A stretch of DNA of 64,000 bases from Candidatus Peregrinibacteria bacterium (GTDB lineage: Bacteria; Patescibacteriota; Gracilibacteria; UM-FILTER-43-11), in contig JAFGCT010000007.1 in assembly GCA_016932505.1 (NCBI GenBank), positions 48,625 to 112,624 on the forward strand. The letters run 5' to 3'. Shown piece after piece: positions 49,278 through 51,376 of this stretch (the first letter of the stretch is position 1; each line of letters begins with the position of its first letter). Both the position numbers and the translations under genes were made by a program. The notes beneath the pieces are model-generated. The model was given only the letters and a program-made list of their open reading frames with translations. It was not told the origin of the DNA and did not search any database.

Positions 49278-49595
49278 ATGACAGATCAGACATTTAGAAA
49301 AATATTTGTTTCACTTTCTGCGCTTGGAATTATTGTATTCCTGGTTTTAATAGTAAGCCTATTGACCAATATCGAATTAAATTCATTGGAGCTGTGGATA
49401 GGAATTACAATAATATATTCAACAATTGTTTGTTTTTATACATTTCCATTATATGGAAAAATAATTACTCTATTTTTATCTACTTTTGCCTTCTCAGCAT
49501 TTTTATTTTTAGCTTTTAGTTGGCCAATTAGTTTCAGCATTATATTTTCATTCATACCAATAGTAATAGTTTTTGGACTCTTTGCCTTACTTTGA
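49278..49595 (+). CDS. Small integral membrane protein
   Basis: Three or four hydrophobic segments. Confidence 0.65.
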   Translation: MTDQTFRKIFVSLSALGIIVFLVLIVSLLTNIELNSLELWIGITIIYSTIVCFYTFPLYGKIITLFLSTFAFSAFLFLAFSWPISFSIIFSFIPIVIVFGLFALL

Positions 49596-49599
49596 AACA

Positions 49600-50070
49600 C
49601 AAAAAACCCCCTTTATCTCGACAGGCGGGATAAGGGGGTCTTTTGTCTAGTTCCGATATTGTGTGAATCGTGCGATACATTTATTTCGTATCGAGATTTA
49701 CTCAGAACCAAACAATTTTTAATGACTAGTTAAAAATAAAACTAAGCTGTATTTTGGTTTTTGTTTTCGTCCGTCCAAGACGTGTCCTTGGGTGTCATCT
49801 TTGTTTTTATTTTTGTTTTAAAAATAGATAACAGAACATAAGTGGGTTGAGTTCTCGCTAGTCAGGCAGAACTACATCATAAAGCCTAGAGAAGATTAGG
49901 CAAGAAGTTGAAAATTTTTATTTTGTTTTTGTTTTTCACTTATTACCTACGTAATCTTCTCAGGGCTTTATATCTTATATGAATGTAAAGGATCTAATGA
50001 GAGATTTCTGCTTTGGACTGTCCGGATCATTTTAATTTGAATTTTGTCCGCGTTCCAAAACTGTTGAAAT
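49600..50070 (-). ncRNA. Orphan structured RNA, about 470 nt, own promoter and terminator
   Basis: Minus-strand TTGCAA (50104-50099), 16-bp spacer, TATAAT (50082-50077); long hairpin, pseudoknot candidate, several smaller stems, A/C-rich linkers; terminator at 49605-49641; no coding frame. Confidence 0.65.
49601..49645. terminator. Bidirectional Rho-independent terminator
   Basis: aaaaaaccccctttatctcgacaggcgggataagggggtctttt. Confidence 0.85.
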
Positions 50071-50209
50071 CAAAGTATTATACCAAGCGTAATTTTATTT
50101 GCAAGTTTTTTATATTTACTAAAAAAGTAAATGATTGTGAAATAACAATTTACATAAAATAATTTGGCTTAAATAAGCCAAGTCAAAAAAATCATAATTA
50201 TACTAATTT

Positions 50210-51376
50210 TTATTGCTCTTGAGCTGCCTTTTGTTGTAATTCCTTCAATATCTCGAGCATTTCAGTATATTCAGCACATCTAAATGAACAACCGTTATCG
50301 GAATCAAAATACCATCTACCTATACAATCCGGAAAACCAGGACGAGGGCCAATAGAAAGTTCATTGGCTAAATTGTAATCACAACATTCATCCCTATCCT
50401 GCTGACTAGTAAAATTTGCGCACAAAATAATTGAGGGATTGTTATTATTATCATCATCACCTCCAAAATAATCATCAAGTTCATCTTCATTAAAACAATT
50501 ATATTCGCAAATACGAGTTGAATTATTAAACTCCCATCTACCAATACACTGAGATGTATCTTCACTTATATTTTCATAAGCACAACAATTATCTCTGACT
50601 GACTGTGAACCTATACTACAGTCCTGTTCATCGCCCTCATCAACTTGTTCATCTTCACTCTCTTCACATATAAATTCGCATTCTCTAAATACATTATTAA
50701 AAATATAATACCCATAACCATCACATGCTGGCTGGTTTAAATCGCTACCCAATGTCTCCTCGCAGCAATAATTTCTAATTGCTTGCGACCCCACACTACA
50801 AACTGGAGGTATATATTCATTTCCTGTTTCAGCTTCTTCATCGCCTTCACCACCACTCTGATTAAGAGATTCCCAGCTATTAGTATCCCAAATAACAGGG
50901 TCTGACACACTTTCAATAGAAACAGATCCATCCTCCATTGTTACAGAGGTTACTAAATTTGTATCAACAAGGAATGACTTTGAGTCTCCAACTAGTGTAT
51001 CTTCATTAGATTTTTTTAAAATAACATCTACTTTATTGCCAGTTCTTATATCCAATAATGTCCCTTCTGGAACAGTAATTGTACCACTTAAAGACTGCCA
51101 TTCATCAGAAAAAGTAAATCCGGACTTGTTATCTTTTGTAACAAAAAAACTGATTTTATCAATGTCACTTTTATTTCCTTTAATATCTGCAGTAATTTTA
51201 TCAGTTTTTCCAGTGACGATTTTTATATTTGAATTATCAAAATTATCCAAAATAAATGAACCTGTTTTTGCGTCTATAGAATTATTAAATTCTGCTTGAG
51301 CAAAAAACAACTTAAAATAAGCAGCACCAAGAAGTAAGAATATGATTGCCAAAGCAACTAAATAAGTGTTTTTCAT
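50210..51376 (-). CDS. Secreted protein with three Cys-rich repeats
   Basis: N-terminal signal/TM; repeats CSVGSQAIRNYCC…, CSIGSQSVRDNCC…, CANFTSQQDRDECC…. Confidence 0.8.
   Translation of the reverse strand: MKNTYLVALAIIFLLLGAAYFKLFFAQAEFNNSIDAKTGSFILDNFDNSNIKIVTGKTDKITADIKGNKSDIDKISFFVTKDNKSGFTFSDEWQSLSGTITVPEGTLLDIRTGNKVDVILKKSNEDTLVGDSKSFLVDTNLVTSVTMEDGSVSIESVSDPVIWDTNSWESLNQSGGEGDEEAETGNEYIPPVCSVGSQAIRNYCCEETLGSDLNQPACDGYGYYIFNNVFRECEFICEESEDEQVDEGDEQDCSIGSQSVRDNCCAYENISEDTSQCIGRWEFNNSTRICEYNCFNEDELDDYFGGDDDNNNNPSIILCANFTSQQDRDECCDYNLANELSIGPRPGFPDCIGRWYFDSDNGCSFRCAEYTEMLEILKELQQKAAQEQ

Follow-up and report, generated by a model that had tools for sequence, protein, structure and literature searches.

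Classes of large structured RNA are rare; several of the known ones have proved to run central processes. The 6S RNA changes structure during its own cycle. Closest in kind to the RNA described here are the large bacterial RNAs OLE, ROOL and GOLLD, which assemble into homo-oligomers by way of kissing loops and A-minor contacts (PMC12286853). We analysed a stretch of 64,000 nucleotides from a Candidatus Peregrinibacteria bacterium (the whole stretch is called the window below) and found on its minus strand, at positions 50104-49601, the gene of a stand-alone RNA, complete with promoter, predicted transcript of ~470 nt and intrinsic terminator. It resembles OLE, ROOL and GOLLD as a large bacterial RNA that stands alone and contains kissing loops, a pseudoknot and A-rich linkers (PMC12286853). 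It differs from them in being smaller, in having no sequence or covariance-model match to them and in being found in one CPR class, as one copy or two in the vicinity of housekeeping genes. In kind the RNA belongs with the large ornate RNAs, and it is a new family without a detectable relative, absent from Rfam; the literature that we searched contained no report of an RNA of this kind.

Promoter, terminator and gene neighbourhood

An earlier note on this DNA had proposed an orphan structured RNA of ~470 nt with its own promoter and terminator, and these signals are as it described. The -35 box TTGCAA (50099..50104, minus strand) is separated by a 16-nt spacer from the -10 box TATAAT (50077..50082, minus strand), and the terminator (49601..49638, minus strand) consists of a GC-rich hairpin (49638-49607) and then T6 (49606-49601). 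We infer a start of transcription near 50070 and, likewise, both transcript ends; the promoter-to-terminator span places the RNA gene at 49601..50071 of the minus strand, where homologs in the family and throughout the class support it. In the 19 aligned family copies the promoter reads TTGnnn-16/17-TATAAT without exception (TACAAT in one), 85-312 nt 5' of the core, and the terminator has the same position in every copy, directly 3' of ...ACAAAA. The RNA is probably constitutively transcribed, and in being a stand-alone, constitutive-looking RNA gene it resembles 6S RNA (RF00013). The absence of a plausible gene from the gap was also borne out, the only open reading frames being short antisense or edge ones of 42-54 aa.

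The preceding gene (50210-51376, minus strand) shares the strand of the RNA and ends ~100 nt from its promoter. Its product is a protein of 388 aa with an N-terminal hydrophobic segment and repeated cysteine-rich modules (C.iGSQ.iRdnCC...C.G.w.f....r.C.y.C), for which no Pfam match was found; homologs of this protein adjoin the RNA in five other genomes of the family. The next downstream gene (49278-49595, plus strand) is convergent with the RNA gene, and therefore the RNA stops at its own terminator.

Within the family of the window, the RNA has a recG, transketolase, LOG-type protein or phosphoribosyltransferase gene nearby. Several distant families have an F420-ligase gene (PF01996) beside the RNA, often together with a formyltransferase gene (PF00551), and the second copy in genome G004 has the same setting (loci L054, L170, L171, L174, L177, L178 and L187 for the F420-ligase gene). 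This is the probable ancestral setting of the RNA, and its recurrence in distant families and at the second copy suggests one ancestral locus with subsequent duplication or move and vertical inheritance of the RNA gene. No gene accompanies the RNA in every lineage compared, which argues for action in trans, and no co-inherited protein partner was identified. The convergent or divergent neighbours vary from lineage to lineage, so that the RNA does not serve a single gene as its leader. A cis-regulatory leader, either a riboswitch or an attenuator with alternating structures, would fit the mutually exclusive pairings described below and the terminator at the 3' end. This reading is hardly tenable, however, since the RNA is followed by its own terminator in the window as well as in the checked relatives and at the F420-ligase loci, the next gene is often convergent and the downstream genes differ among relatives.

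Relation to known RNAs and distribution

The window was searched with cmscan against the 4227 families of Rfam 15, taking a score above the curated gathering threshold as the mark of membership, and only two tRNAs were found; at the RNA locus no family exceeded its threshold, and a permissive scan (E<=10) gave a best chance match of E=0.3. The 37 homologous loci did not match Rfam 15 either, and the scans of the locus and its homologs gave no match to OLE, ROOL or GOLLD, assuming that these families are in Rfam. The earlier note had failed to recognise tmRNA, RNase P RNA, SRP RNA or 6S RNA by eye and had looked to Rfam and to covariation for a verdict. The Rfam scans are empty at the locus, with no significant match among the 4227 families, and the covariation is strong.

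The RNA shares with tmRNA (RF00023) and RNase P RNA (RF00010) a pseudoknot-rich structure of a few hundred nucleotides, but neither covariance model matches the locus and ARAGORN finds no tmRNA there. Both RNAs, and 6S RNA as well, are encoded away from the locus in the genome of the window (G000): RNase P RNA on contig C6, tmRNA on C38 and 6S RNA on C9 (49 bits), the last having the form of a single long hairpin that is bulged at its centre. These separate copies argue against the RNA being any of the three. SRP RNA (RF00169/RF01854) would be an expected housekeeping RNA, and its models gave no match when run on this genome and on 12 near-complete ones of the class, although they also failed to match the B. 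subtilis control. That apparent gap is what would favour a strongly diverged known housekeeping RNA, such as SRP or 6S RNA. We regard this as very improbable given the copies of RNase P RNA, tmRNA and 6S RNA elsewhere in the genome, the lack, on inspection by eye, of an SRP domain IV signature, and the 5' and 3' ends, which are not paired with each other. The SRP protein genes, moreover, are reported to be absent from many CPR bacteria (PMC8080830), and a replacement of SRP RNA was set aside on the grounds of the missing domain IV signature and the reportedly missing proteins.

Of the 19 genomes of the family, 17 gave a blastn match to the RNA, as did one genome of a sister family, with no convincing place in the remainder of the 101 genomes searched; class-level matches of 20-39 nt were A/C-rich and were taken as chance. 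A pattern of the most conserved stretch occurred at 17 places in 15 species-level GTDB genomes, all titled Peregrinibacteria, Gracilibacteria or unassigned Patescibacteria/bacterium (taxonomy was taken from record titles). Covariance models, the E-values of which are rough, were then iterated through three rounds. R1, built from family sequences, found four very diverged homologs in other families, and R2, with three of these four in training, found the RNA in 52 genomes and raised the score of the left-out fourth from 29.0 to 48.9 bits. With R3, at least 97 of 361 class genomes had the RNA at E<=0.01 and at least 87 at E<=1e-5; the large searches scored only a handful of candidates per genome, and other families may still hold it. 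Outside the class, one match (E=2e-5) was obtained among ~355 genomes of a 389-genome phylum sample, and this match (L155 in G543) was judged false as it appears to overlap a pseudopilin-like ORF.

The RNA was probably inherited vertically throughout the Peregrinibacteria/Gracilibacteria class. In several families there are two copies. On G274:C13 and G082:C7 the copies lie close together, ~0.5 and 2.5 kb apart, which suggests tandem duplication. A copy near-identical in type to those of the window's family was seen in a genome of another family (L085, G307:C23) and is probably a misbinned contig, because G307 has its own diverged copy.

A fold conserved by complementarity

The family test comprised 18 aligned cores and 66 named pairs in ten helices: H1 (mid segment with downstream arm), H2, H3a, H3b, a CGUC/GACG hairpin, a UUGG/CCAA pseudoknot, H5, H6, H7 and the contact between the loops of H2 and H5. 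Of all cells, 95.3% were paired, and 37 of the 66 pairs showed double-sided change. None of 500 shuffles equalled the structure on any measure, and slid partners paired in only 30-41%. Among 27 highly diverged sequences of the class, double-sided change was found in 28 of 32 pairs, with 209 double-changed cells compared to 68 in shuffles; fitting the class alignment to the structure inflates its paired fraction and leaves the complementarity tests of the kissing loop and mid segment unaffected. The covariation thus goes beyond both the shuffled and the slid controls. Two stems that had been read by eye, GUUCU/AGAAC and CGAUAC/GUAUCG, proved to be real as helices 2 and 10 of the family test.

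From the 5' end (all positions on the minus strand), the RNA begins with hairpin P0 (50012..50059), in which UUUGGA (50059-50054) pairs with UCCAAA (50017-50012) and the inner CGGA (50050-50047) with UCCG (50026-50023). The outer helix, noted earlier as a 5' stem, is real, and its sequence is replaced in relatives by other complementary pairs such as CUGGGCC/GGCCCAG, UUGAA/UUCAA and AUCUC/GAGAU. Further 3', between the two strands of P1, lies the variable distal hairpin P1b (UGAGAAGAUUA...UAAUCUUCU, 49890..49962), which has an A/C-rich loop and varies widely in length among relatives. A short, conserved and unpaired-looking motif 5' of the mid segment, UCnUUUACA in the family and nUUUGAAAA in other families, is possibly a binding site. 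Hairpin H2 (49850..49873) is formed by AGUUC (49873-49869) and GAACU (49854-49850), with four of five pairs co-varying. H3 (49784..49837) joins GUUCU (49837-49833) to AGGAC (49788-49784) and GUUAUCU (49832-49826) to AGAUGAC (49800-49794); its apical linker is A-rich and 9 of its 12 pairs show double-sided change.

An H-type pseudoknot follows (49754..49782), composed of the hairpin CGUC (49782-49779)/GACG (49771-49768), the linker AAAACAAAAA and the pairing of loop UUGG (49778-49775) with CCAA (49757-49754). The pseudoknot is 100% paired with little variation in the family, and distant homologs have other complementary versions of the pseudoknot, e.g., UUGGC/GCCAA. The CCAAG/CUUGG stem of the earlier note conflicts with this conserved hairpin and pseudoknot, is broken in at least six family members and has to be given up. 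The same is true of its 7-bp pseudoknot between AUAAGUG and CACUUAU, which exists in this sequence only, the loop being changed or absent in relatives. Hairpin H5 (49716..49737) has co-variation in six of six stem pairs, and in the 3' domain (49645..49713) H6 pairs GUUUGGUUCUGA (49713-49702) with UCGGAACUAGAC (49656-49645) and H7 pairs CGAUACG (49693-49687) with UGUAUCG (49679-49673), with double-sided change in 12 of the 19 pairs of H6 and H7. A hairpin with an internal loop, YUCAG...GAUAG, is conserved 3' of the core in most distant families (e.g., L122 and L127) and is not evident in the family of the window.

The pseudoknotted core also contains invariant unpaired nucleotides, namely an AAAAC linker and CCAAAG. 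Such a core would suit a catalytic RNA, either a ribozyme or the RNA component of a processing enzyme, but this seems quite improbable, as known ribozyme families do not match and no genomic target, intron or mobile context is seen.

The loop of H2 (GACUAG, 49863-49858) and that of H5 (CUAGUC, 49729-49724) form a kissing contact that is conserved by complementarity rather than by sequence, with GACUAG/CUAGUC, GACCG/CGGUC and UCAUC/GAUGA as different versions. In the family, GACUAG has become AACU.. in three sequences, and the partner C has changed to U in all three; in a fourth, G has become U alongside an identical C to U change in the partner, and this position is unpaired. The loops of the class change jointly (GACCA/UGGUC, UCAUC/GAUGA and AACUA/UAGUU), and GACCG/CGGUC can be seen by eye in L094, where the automatic alignment misses the pair. 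The contact is absent from every covariance model. The longest loop complement averages 5.48 nt, compared to 4.17 (sd 0.20) when loops are swapped between sequences, and none of 2000 swaps reached this value. The kissing loop, the UUGG/CCAA pseudoknot and the exclusive pairings of the CUAGGCUUUAU segment are features additional to those of the earlier note.

A conserved kissing pair looks the same whether it is intra- or intermolecular. The RNA might be a homo-oligomer, with an intermolecular kissing loop and the exchange of the mid segment between its upstream and downstream arms as a domain swap between chains. The A/C-rich linkers agree with this, as does the assembly of GOLLD, ROOL and OLE homo-oligomers through kissing loops and A-minor contacts (PMC12286853). 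The RNA is, however, shorter than the 577-nt OLE and nothing in the sequence separates the two kinds of contact, and we consider this reading unlikely.

One segment with two exclusive partners

The mid segment CUAGGCUUUAUG (49878..49889, minus strand; 11-12 nt) is a partner common to two arms. With the upstream arm AUAAAGCC (49964..49971, minus strand), the 5' strand of P1a, it forms P1, and with the downstream arm AUACAGCUUAG (49742..49752, minus strand), the 3' strand of H1, it forms H1. Because the same nucleotides of the mid segment are used, P1 and H1 are mutually exclusive. In 18 family members, 96.5% of cells retain the upstream pairing, compared to at most 95.1% in 1000 shuffles, and 98.3% retain the downstream pairing, compared to at most 96.7%. 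The long hairpin AUAAAGCC/GGCUUUAU of the earlier note is hence real, with a pairing above all shuffles. At up3/mid11/down152 the three columns change together, being G-C-G in 9 and A-U-A in 6 of the 18 sequences. The shuffle test of P1 is weakened by kinship among the sequences, and the distant ones give stronger support. In distant families the mid segment reads CUCUGCU, CUUCACU, UCAGGCU, UUAAGCU or UUUUGCU, and the downstream arm follows throughout. It is the downstream pairing that is conserved class-wide, with double-sided change in 8 of 10 pairs. A duplex-energy test of complementarity to the upstream arm over 300 nt was noisy, with some downstream anchors misplaced, and was superseded.

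In 27 of the 28 homologs folded by default, the mid segment is predicted to pair with an upstream arm. For the RNA of the window, the nested-structure energy is -120.7 kcal/mol with P1 versus -107.7 with H1 forced, so that P1 is ~13 kcal/mol better in an isolated nested model and tertiary contacts or a partner would be required for H1. It may be that P1 is just a folding intermediate. On that reading P1, as an intermediate or by-product, plays no part in switching and H1 is the sole functional state, which agrees with P1 being local and forming first and with the better conservation of H1 over the class. We think it somewhat unlikely, since P1 exceeds all shuffles in the family and is predicted in nearly all homologs in spite of their differing mid sequences.

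On balance we favour a new family of large trans-acting structured RNA that would carry a strand-exchange switch and form the core of a ribonucleoprotein or RNA assembly with a housekeeping role. During transcription, the mid segment would first pair with the upstream arm next to it (P1). When synthesis has gone past the downstream arm, the pseudoknot and the kissing hairpin, branch migration could move the mid segment to the downstream arm (H1), and this exchange would close the conserved core and release the upstream arm. A protein, a ligand or a partner RNA may drive the exchange as an on/off switch, the direction of which is our reading of the pairings. The work of the RNA is almost certainly important, because the fold is kept class-wide despite great sequence change. 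More tentatively, it may be a class-wide and possibly essential RNA machine, regulated through strand exchange of one conserved segment between two mutually exclusive and selected partners and locked by the kissing loop and the pseudoknot.

The RNA is inherited throughout a class of uncultured, ultrasmall and probably host-dependent bacteria, and its shape outlasts a very extensive replacement of its sequence. It makes testable whether genomes so reduced possess RNA-based machinery peculiar to them. With both of its alternative pairings conserved, the RNA also offers an unusually clean evolutionary example of a probable strand-exchange switch in an RNA that stands alone.
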